A stretch of 21,299 nucleotides of DNA. Origin: a virus. The stretch spans positions 1 through 21,299 of the IMG/VR virus record IMGVR_UViG_3300009706_000075; one strand, 5' to 3'. Positions 5,815-15,435 of the stretch are shown one piece after another. Each line of letters starts with the position of its first letter. The first letter of the stretch is position 1. Below the pieces are notes generated by a model. The model ran no database searches, had not been told where the DNA came from, and saw only the letters and a list, made by a program, of their open reading frames with translations. A program made the position numbers and the translations under genes.

Positions 5815-6266
5815 TATGACTTCTCAGAACAACTTTTGTCCTTCGGAATCATCTTTTCAACTTCACGAGCCGTCTTCCATGAATCCAAAAGTTGTTCTTC
5901 ATAAAAGAGGTGCGTGTATGCTGTGGCCGAATTATCGAACTCCTCGGTCTGGTTAAGACGCTCAGTGTATTTGTCAGCCACTTCATCTTCCATCACTACG
6001 ATGGCTTTCATGATAGCACCGGGACATTTCAGGTCCGCTGGATATTCATTAACATCCGTGCCCGGCACGCCGCCCAGATGGACGATCAGTTCAGAGAATT
6101 GAGTTACATGAAGCAACTCATCAGCAGCTTGTTTTTCACAGAACTCCCGAAGTTCGTTTCTATGAAGTCCACGAATTTGCACGGCAAACTGAGTGTAAGC
6201 CGCAAGGTGTTTTCTCTCGTTCTTCAAATCTTCTTGTAGCAACGCAACCAAATCTTCATTCGTCAT
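5814..6266 (-). CDS. Ferritin-like diiron protein (bacterioferritin/ferritin relative), 150 aa
   Basis: Four-helix ferritin-like protein. Ligand-like residues sit at family spacing: Glu17 (KNERKH), Glu50-x-x-His53 (ADELLH) and Glu93 (VMEDE), with Glu123/124 in the last helix (YEEQLLDSW). In bacterioferritin that helix carries ExxH; here the His position is Leu. No haem-binding Met is seen next to Glu50. The expected role is ferroxidase and iron storage or detoxification in the host cytoplasm; a related non-storage diiron role cannot be excluded. Good Shine-Dalgarno (GAAGGAGA) supplied by the end of the HNH gene, which it overlaps by 11 nt. It ends in TAATG, coupled to the methylase. The nearby 7Fe ferredoxin suggests a redox partner, which is inference. 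Confidence 0.85.
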   Translation of the reverse strand: MTNEDLVALLQEDLKNERKHLAAYTQFAVQIRGLHRNELREFCEKQAADELLHVTQFSELIVHLGGVPGTDVNEYPADLKCPGAIMKAIVVMEDEVADKYTERLNQTEEFDNSATAYTHLFYEEQLLDSWKTAREVEKMIPKDKSCSEKS

Positions 6267-6690
6267 TGTGATCTCCTTCGTTTAGAATTTGTAGGTCATC
6301 ATTTACAGAGCATAGCATAGTTTCATCAAGATCGACAAGACCTACATGATACAACGCATGACAGCAAGCGCACAACACCACACATTTATTCATTTCGTTT
6401 GCTACAGACTTATATCCATAGTCTGCTCCACGTCCCATCTGAAACTGTTTCTTTTTAGGATCAAAATGATGAAATTCCAGTTGCGCCGAATGAAATTCCC
6501 CTTCCCATTTACATTCTGGGTTCTTGCATCCATAAGATAAACACACCTCATTGATCAATTTGCGTTTTACTTCACGATGCTTTTTGGCTCGTTCAAGTAT
6601 TTTGTCACGATTTTTTTCATAGTGAATTTTGGATTGTTTTTTAAGATGATCTTTGTTTTCCAAATAATACTTCCGATGTCTATTCGTCAT
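6256..6690 (-). CDS. Free-standing HNH endonuclease, 144 aa
   Basis: The start at 6690 (MTNRHRKYYLENKD) is chosen from GGAG upstream and from its overlap with the M28 stop; an open frame continues upstream to 6768. A basic helical N-terminus leads to the HNH core: zinc pair CLSYGCKNPEC, then LEFHHFDPKKK (catalytic His region) and KCVVLCACCHALYH, which supplies the second Cys pair and final His. This is the type found in mobile phage HNH genes. It overlaps the M28 gene and the ferritin-like gene by exactly 11 nt each. The two overlaps read ATGACGAATAG and ATGACGAATGA, so the gene is flanked by a 9-bp direct repeat (see findings). Probably a homing endonuclease inserted into the operon. Confidence 0.88.
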   Translation of the reverse strand: MTNRHRKYYLENKDHLKKQSKIHYEKNRDKILERAKKHREVKRKLINEVCLSYGCKNPECKWEGEFHSAQLEFHHFDPKKKQFQMGRGADYGYKSVANEMNKCVVLCACCHALYHVGLVDLDETMLCSVNDDLQILNEGDHNDE

Positions 6691-7867
6691 GTTTGTGCAA
6701 TTCTCCATTCCCATGTCTGTGATAACCATGAGGGAATGGAACCTCTGGATGTCCGTGGTCATGCACATAAGGCATTTTCTTAAATTCAGCTACATTGAAA
6801 ATTGGTCGGCCTTCGGCCTGACAGAGACGCCATGCTAATTCAAAACCATATCTAGCAACCTTCTCTATGCCATCGTAGTTAATTCTATCAGCAGTGTCAT
6901 CTGGAGTATGATAGTAAGAATGGCCTCCAGTATGTAAAAAAGCAATAGGAACTCTTTTGTTGTAGAAACATGCGTGGTCTGATCCACCTGATCCCCTGCT
7001 GGTGATCTGCTTTGCAAAAGAATACTTGCCGTTCAGACTGTCGATAATCCGACCAATATCTGGAGAACTGTCGCCTGCATTGAACCCAGCGAAGTATTGT
7101 CCCCGACCTAAGTATCCGACCATATCGAAGTTAATCATTGCGATGTGTTTTTTGATAGAAGGGGTACTTCTGGGAAACGTAGGATTGTCGCAATAATATC
7201 GACTGCCGATCAATCCCATCTCCTCTGCACTATAAGCTTGGAAGACAACAGTTCTTTTGACTTTTCCTTTAAGCATGGAAAATGCTTGTGCAATTTCCAT
7301 CAAAGCTACAGTGCCAGATGCGTTGTCGTCTGCTCCGTTATGGATGTCAACACGTCGTGATCGACTCATACTTGGCCCATATCCAATATGATCCATGTGA
7401 GCACCGATAACAATAATCTCGTTTTTCAAAACTGGATCATTGCCTTCGATCCAAGCAAATATGTTTTGCGTAAAGTCATCGCCCTTTTCGTTTTTAGGGC
7501 CAGCATTCATTCTGCGAATACTAAATTTCTGGTATTCAGTGTCCAGATTGTTCTCTTCGTGAAAATCCTTAATGTAAGTGGCGGCAACGACATTGCCCTT
7601 CTTGCCACTCATTCTTCCTTCTAGCTCATCTGAGGCCAGATAGCGAAGATGTTCTTCAAGCTCTTTGCTTGTAATAGATGCTAGAGCCTCTTCAAAGGTA
7701 GATTCCTTTGACTCTGGGATCGGTGTAATTTGTCCTGTGTCATCAGGTTTTGGATTTTCAGCTACTACAGGTGGCTGGTTTCTATCCTGAAATACCTTAT
7801 ATGCGATTACGCCTGTAAGGGCAAAGTTGACACAAATTACGATAGTTAACAGATTTCTAAGTTTCAT
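6680..7867 (-). CDS. Membrane-anchored M28-family zinc aminopeptidase, 395 aa
   Basis: First gene of the minus-strand operon, with GAGGTGA before the ATG. Residues 4-23 form a hydrophobic signal anchor (or uncleaved signal peptide), followed by a Pro-rich linker. The peptidase domain has all expected co-catalytic zinc residues: GAHMDH (His157, Asp159), GADDNASG (Asp180), SAEEMG (Glu215/216), FDMVGY (Asp248) and HTPDDT (His320). M28 enzymes remove N-terminal residues from peptides, here presumably in the periplasm or at the cell surface. The last ~28 residues hold eight His (HDHGHPE, HGYHRHG, LHKHDE), a possible metal-binding tail. Ends with TAG inside the start of the HNH gene. An exported exopeptidase of this kind is unusual in a T4-like phage. 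Confidence 0.93.
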   Translation of the reverse strand: MKLRNLLTIVICVNFALTGVIAYKVFQDRNQPPVVAENPKPDDTGQITPIPESKESTFEEALASITSKELEEHLRYLASDELEGRMSGKKGNVVAATYIKDFHEENNLDTEYQKFSIRRMNAGPKNEKGDDFTQNIFAWIEGNDPVLKNEIIVIGAHMDHIGYGPSMSRSRRVDIHNGADDNASGTVALMEIAQAFSMLKGKVKRTVVFQAYSAEEMGLIGSRYYCDNPTFPRSTPSIKKHIAMINFDMVGYLGRGQYFAGFNAGDSSPDIGRIIDSLNGKYSFAKQITSRGSGGSDHACFYNKRVPIAFLHTGGHSYYHTPDDTADRINYDGIEKVARYGFELAWRLCQAEGRPIFNVAEFKKMPYVHDHGHPEVPFPHGYHRHGNGELHKHDE

Positions 7868-7987: not shown

Positions 7988-9889
7988 ATGCCATTTCATG
8001 ACGTAGATCCAGAATGGAAGTCGAAATATGACACTTTAGAAGATCATTACAACGGTGAGTATGATCCAAAGTATTTCAGCTTCAACAAGTATGAAAAAAC
8101 AATCGATCCGATGGAACCCTTCGATGAAATCGAAGAATATGACCCAGTAACAATACACAAGGAAATGCTTAAATGTGCCATGTCCTTCACATATTGGTGT
8201 CATAAGTATGTAAAGATTGCGCATCCGAAGCGAGGACTCCTTCCTTTTATTCTTTACAAGTATCAGAAACGTGTAATCAAAGAATATGAAAACCGTTTCT
8301 GTATCTTGTCAAAATTTCGTCAAGGGGGCTTGACGACAGTGACAACCATTTGGGCTTTATGGAGATGTCTCTTTAAGCTCGATGAAACGCTTATGGTTCT
8401 TTCCAAGTCTGATCGTGAAGCTATCGCCGCTGGTGAAATCGTCAAAAGAGCGATGCAAGAGCTTCCAGAATGGATGAAACCTGATATGGAAAAGAACAAC
8501 GATCACCAGAAACTATTTCATGACACTGGTTGCAAATTGTTCTTCTACACACCGGAAGCTGCTCGTGGTCGTTCTATCACATATTTGATCTTGGACGAAG
8601 CAGCGTTTATTCCACAGATGGACAAGCACTGGAAAGCTATGTTTCCAACTATCTCTACTGGTGGACACTGTATCACAATTTCTACGGTTAACGGTGTCGG
8701 CAATTGGTACTATGACATTTTCATGGGTGCTAAGAGGGGACGAGGATTCGGTAAAGACTTCCACATCATCGAATTGGATTACTGGGAACATCCTGACTAC
8801 GATGATGAAGATTGGGTTAAGCAAACAAGATCACAACTTGGTGAAAAAGGTTGGTTACAGGAAGTTATGCGTGACTTCCTTGGTGCCGGTGAATCATACA
8901 TCGACCCGGAAATCATCAATGATCTCGATTTAGTAACACGTGAGGTTGAGCCAATTAGAAGGTTGTTCCCAGAGTACAACAACCATCACGAAGCTCAAGA
9001 TCAAAGACTTGAAGATTTAGATTCATGGATCAAAGGTGCTTTGGAAATCTGGAGAGAACCAGTTGATGGCAGAGAGTACATCATTGGAGTTGACTGTGCC
9101 GAAGGTATGGGAGACGAGAACGACAACAGTTGTTTTGAAGTCATAGACGCTGTGACTTGCGAGCAAGTGGCAGAGTTCTATTCAAACATCGTTCCTCCGC
9201 ACAACTTCTCTCAGATTTTGTCCATGGTGGGAAGAACCTACAACAGTGCTTTAATTGTTGTAGAATCTCAGAATGCTGGACTAACTGTTTTAGAAAAACT
9301 GATTCACGATTTGGCCTATGACAATCTGTTTGAATGCTCACAAGGAGCAAGTCTAAAAAGCAAAAACACACAACCGGGAATTAAAACCACTCGGGCTAAC
9401 AGGCCGAAATTCTTAGAAACAATGCAGACCAGACTTATTGCTCACAGTATGGCAATTCGTAGTCGTCGGTTCGTAAAAGAACTTAAAGGTTTCATATTCA
9501 ACGCTCAAACAAAAAGAGCAGAAGCTTCAAAGGGATTTCATGATGATGCAATTATGGCGATGTGTATTGCATTATATGCCAGAGGTGCATCTAACAGAAA
9601 TGTTCCTATTGGATACGAAGACGAAGATATGACTGAGGCTTTCAAGGCAGAGATATACGAAGAAATCAAAAGAGAACTATCAAAGGATGCTCCAAGTTAC
9701 ATAAATATTGACGATATGGATTTGTTAGAAGACGCAAACAAAGACATGGCATCAATTTCACATGGAAACAAAAGAAAACATAACGCTATCTTGAAAGAAT
9801 TTGGATGGAGTGTAATTCCATTCATGTTTGTAAATTTTAGACAAATTCATGATATTTTGACTAATTTGGTTGGCAATACACTATTTTAG
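7988..9889 (+). CDS. 17: Terminase large subunit (T4 gp17-like), 633 aa
   Basis: DNA-packaging motor ATPase and headful nuclease, docking on the portal. The ATPase half shows a Walker A region at 108-117 (SKFRQGGLTT, lacking the usual GKT lysine), Walker B LILDEAAF (Asp203, Glu204) and coupling motif TISTVNG (230-236). The RNase H-like nuclease half shows GVDCAEGMG (Asp369), VVESQNAG (Glu426) and FHDDAIMAM (Asp519/520). Length is near T4 gp17 (610). Ribosome binding site GGGAGGTAAC. The C-terminus ILKEFGW (to Trp607), as I recall it from relatives, is normally the end of the protein; the 26 hydrophobic residues after it are probably an addition caused by the endonuclease gene behind it. No small terminase, sheath or tube gene is adjacent, unlike T4. 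Confidence 0.96.
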   Translation: MPFHDVDPEWKSKYDTLEDHYNGEYDPKYFSFNKYEKTIDPMEPFDEIEEYDPVTIHKEMLKCAMSFTYWCHKYVKIAHPKRGLLPFILYKYQKRVIKEYENRFCILSKFRQGGLTTVTTIWALWRCLFKLDETLMVLSKSDREAIAAGEIVKRAMQELPEWMKPDMEKNNDHQKLFHDTGCKLFFYTPEAARGRSITYLILDEAAFIPQMDKHWKAMFPTISTGGHCITISTVNGVGNWYYDIFMGAKRGRGFGKDFHIIELDYWEHPDYDDEDWVKQTRSQLGEKGWLQEVMRDFLGAGESYIDPEIINDLDLVTREVEPIRRLFPEYNNHHEAQDQRLEDLDSWIKGALEIWREPVDGREYIIGVDCAEGMGDENDNSCFEVIDAVTCEQVAEFYSNIVPPHNFSQILSMVGRTYNSALIVVESQNAGLTVLEKLIHDLAYDNLFECSQGASLKSKNTQPGIKTTRANRPKFLETMQTRLIAHSMAIRSRRFVKELKGFIFNAQTKRAEASKGFHDDAIMAMCIALYARGASNRNVPIGYEDEDMTEAFKAEIYEEIKRELSKDAPSYINIDDMDLLEDANKDMASISHGNKRKHNAILKEFGWSVIPFMFVNFRQIHDILTNLVGNTLF

Positions 9890-9892
9890 TTT

Positions 9893-10840
9893 ATGACAAT
9901 CATAAACAAAAACAAATTAACACAACTACACGTTAAAGATGGCATGACTTACAAAGAGATAGCCGAAAATCTAAACACAACAATTTACTGGGTAAGAAAA
10001 TCTATTAAAGAACATGAAATACAGCCAAGAAAAGCAGGACAAAGAGAAGGAAAAACACACAGTGAAGAAACAAGAAAAAAGATATCTGCGATACACAAAG
10101 GGAAAACAGTAAGCAAAGAAACTCGCATTAAAATGAGCGAATCTAAAAAAGGTTCGTTAAATCATAACTTTGGGAAGAAACATAAACATCATGGAAAAAG
10201 ACATTGGTGTAAGTGCCCTGACGGTAAGACAGTATCCATGCGAAGCACTTGGGAAATTGCTTATACCGAACATCTTAATCAGATAGGGACAATGTGGAAG
10301 TACGAACCCAAAACATTTGTTCTTGAAGATGGCAGAGCTTATACACCAGATTTTTATCTTTCTGATGACAAAACATGGGTGGAGGTAAAAGGCTGGCTTA
10401 CACCAGAGCATAAGACAAGAATGGAATCGTGGAAAAAAGAAAACCCTGATGAGTCTTTGATTTTAGCTGATAAGAAGTATTTGCAATCTCTTGGAATTGA
10501 TCTTAAGAAGAAGTGGATAACATCAAAACCAAAATTTGAATGCCTAGAGTGCAAAGAACTATTCTACAGAAAAGAGCCAAGTCAAAGATTGTGTTCTGTA
10601 ACTTGCAGAAATAGATTTGTGGCAAGTGGTAAAAGATTAACAAAAGAAGAGGATAAACCCAAAAGAAAGTACAATGGAAATCAGTCATATGGAAATAACA
10701 ACTCTTCAAAATTGACCCAAACAGATATTCAAGAAATTAGAGATATGAAAAAATCCAAAGCAGCAGAAGAGATAGCTATGTTAAAGAAAACTTCGGTTTC
10801 AAATGTGTACAATATATGCAGAGAGGTGTCATGGAAATAA
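9893..10840 (+). CDS. PD-(D/E)XK-type homing endonuclease with NUMOD-like motifs, 315 aa
   Basis: Modular mobile nuclease. Domains in order: helix-turn-helix at ~9-45 (MTYKEIAENLNTTIYWVRKS); two NUMOD3-like DNA-binding motifs at ~57-88 (HSEETRKKISAIHKGK and SKETRIKMSESKKG); a PD-(D/E)XK-like core at ~113-202 with Glu121, TPDF (Asp153) and VEVKGW (Glu164, Lys166); a zinc finger CLEC...CSVTC (Cys217, 220, 234, 238); and a second helix-turn-helix at ~273-312. No Shine-Dalgarno precedes the ATG. It begins 3 nt after the terminase TAG and lies in the same frame, so translation may depend on termination-reinitiation. It is very Lys/A-rich compared with the terminase. Probably a selfish gene at the terminase 3' end. 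Confidence 0.88.
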   Translation: MTIINKNKLTQLHVKDGMTYKEIAENLNTTIYWVRKSIKEHEIQPRKAGQREGKTHSEETRKKISAIHKGKTVSKETRIKMSESKKGSLNHNFGKKHKHHGKRHWCKCPDGKTVSMRSTWEIAYTEHLNQIGTMWKYEPKTFVLEDGRAYTPDFYLSDDKTWVEVKGWLTPEHKTRMESWKKENPDESLILADKKYLQSLGIDLKKKWITSKPKFECLECKELFYRKEPSQRLCSVTCRNRFVASGKRLTKEEDKPKRKYNGNQSYGNNNSSKLTQTDIQEIRDMKKSKAAEEIAMLKKTSVSNVYNICREVSWK

Positions 10841-10865
10841 CAGACAACAACAGATAAGAGGTAAC

Positions 10866-11003
10866 ATGAGTCATCAATTTATAAAAAACATGAAAACAGG
10901 AGTTTTGCGTATGGAGCGATCTAGTGAAGAGGTCCATATGCCAATTACATTAGACTTTCATTTTGAACTAGCAGAAGAACATAAGGGAAGCGAGGAAAAA
11001 TAA
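10866..11003 (+). CDS. Small hypothetical protein, 45 aa
   Basis: Begins MSHQFIKNMKTGVLRMERSS behind AAGAGGTAAC, the same ribosome binding site type used elsewhere in the head region. The frame is open upstream to 10803, but that lies inside the endonuclease gene. Its TAA overlaps the next ATG (TAATG at 11001-11005), which supports a real, coupled gene. The charged C-terminus (AEEHKGSEEK) is all that stands out. No family recognised. Confidence 0.65.
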   Translation: MSHQFIKNMKTGVLRMERSSEEVHMPITLDFHFELAEEHKGSEEK

Positions 11004-12849: not shown

Positions 12850-15435
12850 ATGGCTTGGTGGGATTTTTTCAAAGTCTTTACGTATGCGTTCACTGATGAT
12901 CCTCTTACAAAGAGAGATCAAAAAGACCTTATGGGTGCTGGTGTGTCCCAGCCCGATGCCATCCCGGATATTCGTGCCGGTCAGGACGGCAACTGGGGCG
13001 GTGGCGGTGGGGCGATTAAGTTACGTGACACAAACGATTTTGTCGATTTGTCTACGGTCACGAACCGTATTCATAGATATAAAGAGTACGAACGCTTAAG
13101 AAACATGGCAGAAATTGAAATGGCCATGACCGTTTTCGCTGACGAAGCATGTTTGGCAGGCAGTACAAAAATTGCAACGCCACATGGATTTAGAACAATC
13201 AAAGACCTAGCAGAGAATGAGACCGAAAGGTTTTTGGTCTATTGCTACGATCATAATAAAAGAGACTACACCCTTGGTTGGGCATTCAATCCACGAAAAG
13301 TAAAGACAGCACCAACTATCAAAATCATGCTTGATGATGGAAACTCTTTTATCGTCACAACAGATCATGAAATTCTATTGAGAGATGGAAAGTGGATAGA
13401 AGCAGGCGAGCTTAATTACGGACATGAGTTAATGCCGTTCTATCATCTGGAAGCCAGACAGGACTTAACGGGAATTAAAACAAATCAATTCCCGAGAATA
13501 TGGACACACGAAAAAGGTTGGGTTCATGAAAGACAATTCGTAGATGAGTGGACTACTGGAAAAACCAAAGATGAACTCAAGGCAGTTAACAGCTATTGCC
13601 AAATGATTGCTGAAGGATTGACAGTAAGGCAAATAACAAAACTCACAGGAAATAATTTTGTCACAGTAAGAGACAGAATTGAAAATGCTGGATTCTCAAA
13701 TAAAGAGATGAAGTGGCTTGGCAACAAAGAAGATCGCCGACGAGTGGTCGGTGTTCAACCATGGAAAGAAATTGATGTCTATGACATGTCGGTAGAGAAA
13801 CACAAAAACTTTGCAACCAATTGGGGCATCGTTCACAATTGCCAAAAAGATGATGAAGGTCATGTGATGAATATCATGTGTGCAAATCAAGAAGTTAAAG
13901 AAGAAGTTGAATGGTTATTGTTCCATCGCAAAATGCTTAACTTCGATCAAAAGAAAATGTGGGACTTGGCAAAAAGACTGTTCATTAACGGAGACTTCTT
14001 TTATGAACTGATTATTGATATTGAAAATCCTAAGAACGGAGTTATTGGTTTAATTCCTTTGCCAGCAGACAGCATCTACAGAATCGAAACAACCAAAGGC
14101 AAGATCGTAGAATATCAACAATCTAAGGAAGGCCCAGATTATCAAAGTTTGGCCAGAGTGGAAGTCACTCAGGCAACTGAGGCCGATCTTCAACAGGCCA
14201 CAGCCGTAAGGTTCGCTCCAACACAGGTAGTTCACTTTAAGATCGGAGACGATAGAAAGACATTCTATCCATACGGCGTGTCTCTTATTGAGGCCGCTCG
14301 TGGGCCAGCACATCAATTAAGATTGATGGAAGATGCCATGGTTGTTTACAGACTGACACGTGCGCCTGAAAGAAGAGTGTTCTATATTGACGTTCAACAA
14401 TTGAATCCGGCTAAAGCCGAAGCATTCATAGAACGTATGAAAGATCAATTTAAGAAAAAGAAAGTTGCTAGTGGTAAAGGTGGAGGCAGCGGAGCGTCCG
14501 CTGTTGAAGAACGCTGGCACGCTCCTGCGGCTGATGAAGATTACTGGATTCCTATTCGTCCTAATGCCAACACACGTGTTGAAACATTACCGGGTGCTCA
14601 GAATCTTGGAGAGATCGACGACACAGTTTACTTCAGAAACAAACTGTTCACCGCTTTGAATTTCCCAAAGAACTATTTCAACAACGAAGATTCACAAGCA
14701 ACCAGAATTTCATTATCAGCACAAGACATTAAATTCGCTCGAATGATCGAAAGACTTCAAGCACACATCGAAGATGCTTTCTGGGAAATCTGTGATAGGC
14801 ATCTAAGGTTAATGGGATACACAGAAGATTCCTACGAAGACCTTGAAATAAAAATGACTCCACCGTCTGACTGGCGTGAACTCACAAGAGCAGAGGTTGT
14901 AACTAATCGATTAAATAACGCAGCCAACTTAAAGGGTTCACAATTGATGTCAGATTATGACATTCTAGTATTGTGGCTCAAGTACAGTGAAGATGAAGCC
15001 AAAGAAATGTTAGCTCGACTCAAAATACAAAAATTGGAAGAGTTGAAGCTACAGATCATTGCACAGAATCCAGCCTTGTTAGGTGTAGGTCTTCCCGGCC
15101 CAGATGATGGAGAAGAAATTGGAACAGAACCCGGTGGTCCTAATCCAATGCTTGGTCCAGAGATGGGAGCGCAAGGAGATGCCATGGGTATGCCTCCCGG
15201 TGCAGGAGAAGCTGGCGGAATGCCAACTGGTGCTCCGGGAATGCGTAAATACATGGACGCAGAAGAAGGCATGGGAGGAGAAATGGGAATGGATCAAGGC
15301 CCACCTCCAGCAGCCGGTTCTGGAAACCCAATTCCTGATGCTACAGAAACGGATATCAAGAAATTCGATCTGGAAATCAAAGACTTTGCCCAAGAAATGG
15401 ACGAAGAAGAAACTGATAGGAGCGAGGAAGGATGA
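12850..15435 (+). CDS. 20: Portal protein (T4 gp20-like) interrupted by an intein, 861 aa precursor
   Basis: Forms the dodecameric vertex through which DNA enters and on which the prohead nucleates. The precursor contains a 230-residue intein (residues 101-330); splicing would leave a 631-residue portal, longer than T4 gp20 (524). Family landmarks are the inner-membrane-like N-terminus (MAWWDFFKVF), YRLTRAPERRVFYIDV, EDYWIPIRPN and ETLPGAQNLGEIDD, then FTALNFPKNYF. Extras are a Lys/Gly-rich loop (KKKKVASGKGGGSG) and a C-terminal Gly/Pro/Met-rich tail, about residues 745-820 of the precursor, ending in an acidic helix. It starts after GAAGGAG. The intein sits at ADEA^C, with Cys331 as the +1 nucleophile. 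Confidence 0.96.
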   Translation: MAWWDFFKVFTYAFTDDPLTKRDQKDLMGAGVSQPDAIPDIRAGQDGNWGGGGGAIKLRDTNDFVDLSTVTNRIHRYKEYERLRNMAEIEMAMTVFADEACLAGSTKIATPHGFRTIKDLAENETERFLVYCYDHNKRDYTLGWAFNPRKVKTAPTIKIMLDDGNSFIVTTDHEILLRDGKWIEAGELNYGHELMPFYHLEARQDLTGIKTNQFPRIWTHEKGWVHERQFVDEWTTGKTKDELKAVNSYCQMIAEGLTVRQITKLTGNNFVTVRDRIENAGFSNKEMKWLGNKEDRRRVVGVQPWKEIDVYDMSVEKHKNFATNWGIVHNCQKDDEGHVMNIMCANQEVKEEVEWLLFHRKMLNFDQKKMWDLAKRLFINGDFFYELIIDIENPKNGVIGLIPLPADSIYRIETTKGKIVEYQQSKEGPDYQSLARVEVTQATEADLQQATAVRFAPTQVVHFKIGDDRKTFYPYGVSLIEAARGPAHQLRLMEDAMVVYRLTRAPERRVFYIDVQQLNPAKAEAFIERMKDQFKKKKVASGKGGGSGASAVEERWHAPAADEDYWIPIRPNANTRVETLPGAQNLGEIDDTVYFRNKLFTALNFPKNYFNNEDSQATRISLSAQDIKFARMIERLQAHIEDAFWEICDRHLRLMGYTEDSYEDLEIKMTPPSDWRELTRAEVVTNRLNNAANLKGSQLMSDYDILVLWLKYSEDEAKEMLARLKIQKLEELKLQIIAQNPALLGVGLPGPDDGEEIGTEPGGPNPMLGPEMGAQGDAMGMPPGAGEAGGMPTGAPGMRKYMDAEEGMGGEMGMDQGPPPAAGSGNPIPDATETDIKKFDLEIKDFAQEMDEEETDRSEEG
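13150..13839 (+). mobile_element. Intein in the portal protein, 230 aa, without recognisable endonuclease
   Basis: Self-splicing protein element. Block A is CLAGSTKIATPHGFRTIKDL (intein residues 1-20, nucleophile Cys1); block B is FIVTTDHEILL (Thr70, His73); blocks F/G are IDVYDMSVEKHKNFATNWG and IVHN, ending in His229-Asn230, followed by Cys+1. All residues needed for splicing are present. The central ~95 residues contain no LAGLIDADG or HNH motif but do contain a helix-turn-helix-like unit (147-181, EGLTVRQITKLTGNNFVTVR). This resembles the N-terminal helix-turn-helix of the endonuclease at 9893. It may be a relic of a lost endonuclease or a DNA-binding module working with a separate nuclease. 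Confidence 0.93.

Follow-up and report, generated by a model that had tools for sequence, protein, structure and literature searches.

In phage T4, the freestanding homing endonuclease gene mobE adjoins the essential gene nrdA, shows presence/absence polymorphism and lacks a ribosome-binding site of its own, and coupled starts have been proposed for T4 freestanding endonucleases such as mobE, which follows nrdA with the sequence UAAUGA (PMC2988022). A second precedent is I-TevI, which is autoregulated through an operator in which 15 of 20 bases agree with its homing site (PMC2988022). The neighbourhoods of terminase genes are known hot spots for homing endonuclease genes (PMC10448857).

Here, we analysed a 21,299-nucleotide stretch of viral DNA (IMG/VR record IMGVR_UViG_3300009706_000075, positions 1 to 21,299; the window in the following), in which a homing-type endonuclease gene, HE1, follows the gene of the terminase large subunit. 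Comparison with relatives points with high confidence to a homing-type endonuclease element inserted behind the last terminase codon and ahead of the stop, and to the family that it belongs to. We estimate a probability of roughly 78% that this is a freestanding homing endonuclease element with its home at the terminase last-codon/stop junction, which would home by cutting and be expressed through reinitiation. Like mobE, HE1 is freestanding, adjoins an essential gene, is present or absent among relatives, has no ribosome-binding site of its own and has a start that appears to be coupled to the upstream stop; unlike mobE, its element separates the final codon of the host gene from the stop, and the 5′ segment of the element extends the host protein. 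The catalytic domain is T7-endonuclease-I-like, not HNH or GIY-YIG as in T4-type freestanding endonucleases, and although HE1 shares with T7 endonuclease I and the PD-(D/E)XK nucleases the E, PD, ExK active-site pattern and a profile match, it differs from the former in being fused to NUMOD3, zinc-finger and HTH parts. As with I-TevI, the nuclease ORF is preceded by a degenerate copy of the presumed target; HE1, however, is freestanding, belongs to another nuclease class and has no recognised promoter, and an operator role is putative. Compared with other terminase-adjacent homing endonuclease genes (PMC10448857), two unrelated families are found here at one codon-exact site at the gene end. 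Measured against the open-access PMC literature, the element is of a known kind, with an unusual placement and a host-protein tail.

Insertion between the last terminase codon and the stop

The terminase ORF, tail included, occupies 7988-9889 on the plus strand, and Pfam matches to Terminase_6N and 6C above cut-off identified its product as a T4-type large subunit. As the first-pass annotation had read, the protein reaches ILKEFGW at Trp607 (codon 9806-9808) and then runs through 26 extra, hydrophobic residues to a TAG at 9887-9889. The native part (7988..9808, plus strand, ending ...AILKEFGW) stops where most relatives stop: EFGW or EFGF followed by a stop codon was the usual terminase end in this lineage, found at 66 of 89 distinct ends, and the presumed homing site is therefore conserved DNA in an essential gene. 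The first-pass annotation had also given ILKEFGW as the usual end of marine T4-like terminases, which was borne out for this mostly uncultured lineage; the EFG(W/F)-stop rule is limited to it, because cultured terminase relatives are distant, mostly below 32% identity. Separately, small ORFs that end in LLKEFGW-stop were observed directly 3′ of the terminase in L006 (7800-8147), L049/L047, L059 and L253, repeating the terminase C terminus on a second protein.

An empty site was provided by L002, a relative with a 95% identical terminase and no nuclease. Its terminase ends EFGW-stop with no tail, the sequence reading ...EFGW-TAA-CATGAGTC (TGG-TAACATGAG at the site) with no insert; past the TAA it continues with CATGAGTCATCAATTT, which is found identically in the window at 10865. 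When the window was compared with L002 by blastn, the left match ended at 9808 and the right match started at 10860, with GG shared, placing an inserted element of 1,053 nt at 9809..10861 (plus strand) with edges that can slide by 2 nt. The extra sequence lies exactly between the Trp607 codon (TGG, to 9808) and the TAA at 10862, leaving both intact; this alignment shows the insertion directly. Presence and absence at the exact site were likewise seen among near relatives in L186/L103 and L020/L073, in addition to the window/L002 pair, which is resolved to 2 nt. Furthermore, the contig L001 is 99.99% identical to the window over 12.7 kb including this region, and an assembly error peculiar to the window is thereby ruled out. 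On the 3′ side, in-frame QTTTDKR codons lead to the original terminase stop (10841..10864, plus strand, with the TAA at 10862-10864), as judged from the sister comparison L186/L103, in which the L186 nuclease terminates directly at the stop that corresponds to the old terminase TAA. The next gene (MSHQFIKN..., 10866..11003, plus strand) has its start abutting the old terminase stop, as in L002; it comprises 45 codons in the window versus 82 in L002 (3211-3459), an internal deletion beside the insertion.

The first-pass annotation had proposed a 1,026-nt endonuclease cassette at the last codons of the terminase, delimited by the ATGGA copies at 9805 and 10831, the joining of which would give EFGWK-stop. 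The empty L002 site confirmed a cassette at the very end of the gene, and both ATGGA copies are present, but the insert measures 1,053 nt and its edges are not ATGGA; joining TGG (9808) to TAA (10862) restores EFGW-stop instead. An ATGGA direct repeat as the junction was ruled out by the L002 empty site and by the frequency of this motif (54 plus-strand copies, 8 of them within 9700-10900), and the copy at 10831 is part of an SWK motif (TGGAAA/TGGAAG) conserved at the C terminus of the nuclease family. Two further candidates were set aside: a ten-pair hairpin at 9802-9824 (TGGATGGAGTGTAATTCCATTCA), which spans the left junction in the window, was dropped as a general feature since it was not common to the other tails examined, and the motif TTTGGNNGGYAANNTACTAT was rejected as a general mobile-element end because its matches outside terminase ends look chance-like and none lies near a terminase.

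Removal of 9809-10861 restores TGG-TAA exactly, as would be expected if the insert were a self-splicing intron and the mature terminase ended EFGW-stop. However, a search of the window with Rfam gave no group I or group II intron match even at E values up to 5, and the part of the insert outside the ORF amounts to only about 105 nt (47-84 nt before the nuclease start in the homologues with both tail and HE1), too little for a known intron core to fit, which makes an intron highly improbable. An intein was ruled out by the stops at 9887 and 10838 inside the insert.

The nuclease HE1 and its start

HE1 (9893..10840, plus strand) encodes 315 amino acids and was identified from its NUMOD3 motif, PHROGs matches, a T7 endonuclease I profile match and seven same-site homologues. 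As first read, its ATG follows the terminase TAG after three bases (TTT) in the same frame and with no Shine-Dalgarno sequence, and the gene closes in that frame with TGG-AAA-TAA (TAA at 10838-10840). Its parts are ordered HTH, NUMOD3, T7-endonuclease-I-like PD-(D/E)XK domain, zinc finger and HTH. The NUMOD3 motif (residues 70-97, 10100..10183, plus strand) matched Pfam PF07460 at 39.4 bits against a cut-off of 20.4, and no HNH domain was found in HE1 with Pfam. The nuclease domain (residues 112-194, 10226..10474, plus strand) matched PHROG 945 and PHROG 9019, the PHROG matches of HE1 being Holliday junction resolvase and endonuclease families, and a profile of the eight homologues, run against the PDB, matched T7 endonuclease I with E=2e-6. 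Its residues E121, D153, E164 and K166 are invariant in all eight homologues, as are the four cysteines (C217, C220, C234, C238) of the zinc-finger-like segment at 10541..10606 (plus strand). Three helices were predicted in the C-terminal HTH-like segment (residues 276-309, 10718..10819, plus strand), which is missing from the shorter homologues L020 and L132. An AlphaFold model (mean pLDDT 78) displayed a mixed nuclease core flanked by a helical segment at either terminus; matches in a fold search were weak, with a best E of 5e-3 and T7 endonuclease I at rank 6 (E 0.04). Comparison of the L186 and L208 nucleases gave a dN/dS of 0.15, indicating purifying selection, and a search for HE1 in cellular genomes found none. 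Because the TAA of the window HE1 lies seven codons before the old stop and homologues extend a few residues more, this putative nuclease may be slightly truncated.

Two other loci of the window bear on mobile sequences. The portal (gp20) gene at 12850-15435 contains an in-frame intein splicing domain at roughly 13150-13845, with no evident nuclease, and portal inserts at the same place are visible in L084, L100, L108 and L199. On the minus strand, an ORF at 6256-6768 with an HNH-like Cys/His pattern (CKNPEC...HHFD...CACCHALYH), noticed by eye, is a possible second mobile nuclease.

The start of HE1 in the window had a best anti-Shine-Dalgarno energy of +1.7 kcal/mol, versus a median of -8.05 for 18 other starts of the window. 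Energies of +0.6 to +1.7 were obtained for the HE1 starts preceded by a tail, except in L139 (-2.9); by contrast, L020 and L132, the homologues without a tail, have their own Shine-Dalgarno sequences (-10.0 and -4.2, respectively). At five of six loci with tail and HE1 (window, L139, L244, L186 and L231), the terminase stop either precedes the nuclease ATG by at most 7 nt or overlaps it, by up to 4 nt; L208 is the exception, with a stop 41 nt before the nuclease start. Shuffling gave chances of 0.04, 0.07, 0.13, 0.42 and 0.33, respectively, for a stop within 10 nt at the five loci. From the stops near nuclease starts, the tailed starts lacking a Shine-Dalgarno sequence and the tail-less homologues having one, we infer with moderate confidence a termination-reinitiation coupling, in which the tail would bring terminase ribosomes to the nuclease start. 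Coupling is not the universal way of expressing these genes, because the starts of the unrelated nuclease family HE2 (L064 and L075) have neither tail nor Shine-Dalgarno sequence; nor does it alone explain the tails, which persist, and are hydrophobic, where no nuclease was found. A late-promoter-like TATAAATA near the nuclease was not above chance.

Recurrence at the site and the terminase tails

Seven other viral lineages (L139, L186/L100, L208/L108, L199/L244, L231, L020 and L132) carry an HE1 homologue immediately behind the terminase EFGW, and HE2 (Homing endonuclease associated repeat, PF18780) occupies the same spot in L064 and L075. Decayed nucleases were detected there in L026 (HE1, E=5.6e-7), L050 (HE1 C terminus, E=2.4e-5) and L005 (HE2, E=4e-23), and most relatives have no nuclease beside the terminase. 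On a terminase tree of 86 rows, 10 changes are required to account for the occurrence of nucleases or remnants. Homing endonucleases leave just such a record of gain, decay and loss at a single exact site, which suggests homing here. The nuclease could instead assist the terminase in packaging, in the manner of the HNH proteins found next to some terminases, given that its gene is adjacent and its fold class appears to be junction-resolvase-like; yet HE1 is not HNH, is missing from most relatives, gives way to an unrelated family in two and persists elsewhere as remnants, and such a partnership is very unlikely.

The in-frame tail of the window, SVIPFMFVNFRQIHDILTNLVGNTLF followed by TAG (9809..9889, plus strand), is missing from L002. 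When a tail was defined as an extension of more than 5 residues past the native end (a single shorter case, L144, ends EFGWW-stop), about 15 of the 89 distinct terminase ends were tailed in frame and a pattern search added two more, giving tails in about 17 lineages. Six lineages, the window included, combine a tail with HE1, and their terminase frames stay open through 12-26 residues; tails with no adjoining nuclease were found in L003, L016, L057, L084, L086, L129, L142, L145, L152 and L157. Against its own idea of an insertion, the first-pass annotation had set nuclease-free relatives with an SVIPFMFVNF-type tail, and in part this is what was found, as tails of the form W-S/A-x-(I/L)-P-F occur in the nuclease-free L086 (SFLPFVITLNQFF) and L084 (AVLPFIFTACEVLTNSVSGLA). 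Nevertheless, these tails are additions at the same point, and in L050 a tail still stands before the C terminus of a decayed nuclease, the clearest leftover, so that the insertion idea is widened rather than refuted. Simple stop-codon loss was rejected as the origin of nuclease-free tails, since tailed phages carry extra sequence at this point compared with tail-less relatives, in which mostly short spacers separate the stop from the next start. Being additions at the same point, the nuclease-free tails appear to fit best as leftovers or as independent gains at the same landing site. In L208 (2290-2370), the tail DNA occurs twice before the nuclease, first intact and then in a decayed form with TAG at the Trp codon, as though the 5′ segment had been gained in two events.

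On the same 86-row tree, 15 changes of tail state are required, making the tail as patchy as the nuclease. The mean hydropathy (GRAVY) of 13 tails, close copies removed, was 1.62 versus 1.01 ± 0.17 in stop-free shuffles (0 of 2000), and the 11 tails that lack an intact nuclease gave 1.68 versus 1.09 ± 0.19. T was enriched at codon position 2 of the tails (56% versus 37% and 44%), and each of the 17 tails keeps its frame open over 11 codons or more. Patchy on the tree and more hydrophobic than their composition predicts, the tails are not plain noise. Thus, the earlier description of an altered but tolerated tail holds in that the insertion extended the terminase, but "merely tolerated" is too weak for frames that are open and hydrophobic beyond chance. 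This composition may be a sign of protein-level constraint, either because an end that has to remain buried is tolerated or because the tail has a function; our confidence in a benefit to the phage is low. If such a benefit existed, the tail might be a functional alternative terminase C terminus, with the nuclease a passenger, and the hydropathy, seen with or without a nuclease, the T enrichment and the open frames would fit. That reading is rather unlikely, as the tails are sporadic, with tail-less relatives nearby at almost every one of the 15 changes, and vary widely in sequence; moreover, L125, close to L208, has the same DNA but a stop right after W. Equally tentative is the proposal that the tail is an active part of the element, under protein-level selection, which modifies the terminase and outlasts the nuclease, perhaps because it leaves the target split, as a scar conferring immunity, or by docking where the native EFGW end binds, with the terminase stop as a shared landing site. 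As a separate observation, the tails of L186, L139, L231 and L244 encode, in an alternative frame, DKLV(V/L)FGW-stop, which nearly repeats the terminase C terminus, with mostly synonymous differences; no clear slippery site for a frameshift that would restore the FGW end was found in the L186-type tails (alternative frame DKLVVFGW-stop).

A duplicate of the terminase 3′ end and a proposed life cycle

Upstream of HE1, a profile of 61 empty terminase ends picked up the terminase 3′ end a second time, in degenerate form (TATTTTGACTAATTTGGTTGGCAA, 9853..9876, plus strand). In the window, this copy scored 1.8 versus -10.9 ± 4.8 in shuffles (p=0.017), and higher scores were obtained in L064 (18.6, p=0.003), L075 (10.6, p=0.003), L050 (8.7, p=0.007) and L186 (4.4, p=0.003), where shuffled means ranged from -10 to -14. 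This copy may be a dead by-product of insertion. Alternatively, it could be a live operator for autoregulation, putatively bound by the nuclease as in the I-TevI precedent; scores far above shuffles in L064, L075, L050 and L186 would agree with this, as would the finding that about 27 nt differ at few sites among L186, L139, L231 and L244, yet their nucleases share only ~50% residue identity. On the other hand, no plus-strand promoter-like site overlaps the copy in the window, where it reaches merely p=0.017, and the copy is weak in L132 and L020; a live operator is accordingly the less probable of the two and, in our judgement, unlikely.

For the freestanding homing endonuclease element that we favour, the following life cycle is proposed. 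HE1 would recognise the conserved DNA that encodes (K/R)EFGW-stop in phages lacking the element, its presumed target being GARTTYGGNTGG-TAAC, with GAATTTGGATGG-TAACATG as the empty-site form. It would cut this empty site, and the element would be copied in by repair, whereupon the split target would protect the carrier. The 5′ segment of the element would keep the terminase frame open, and ribosomes released beside the nuclease start would reinitiate there. The cost would be a short hydrophobic extension of the terminase, which is accepted and may sometimes outlive the nuclease.

Such an element would represent an uncommon route into an essential gene without an intron or intein: entering before the stop, extending the host protein and borrowing the ribosomes of the host gene for its own start. 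Empty, occupied and decayed alleles are abundant, and they offer a natural series in which the life cycle of homing could be studied in large uncultured phages. The recurring hydrophobic tails pose the question of what role the far C terminus plays in the T4-type packaging motor. Furthermore, if the tail is indeed an active part of the element, then unrelated nucleases and the small LLKEFGW-ending proteins would add and remove C-terminal peptides at the terminase stop.
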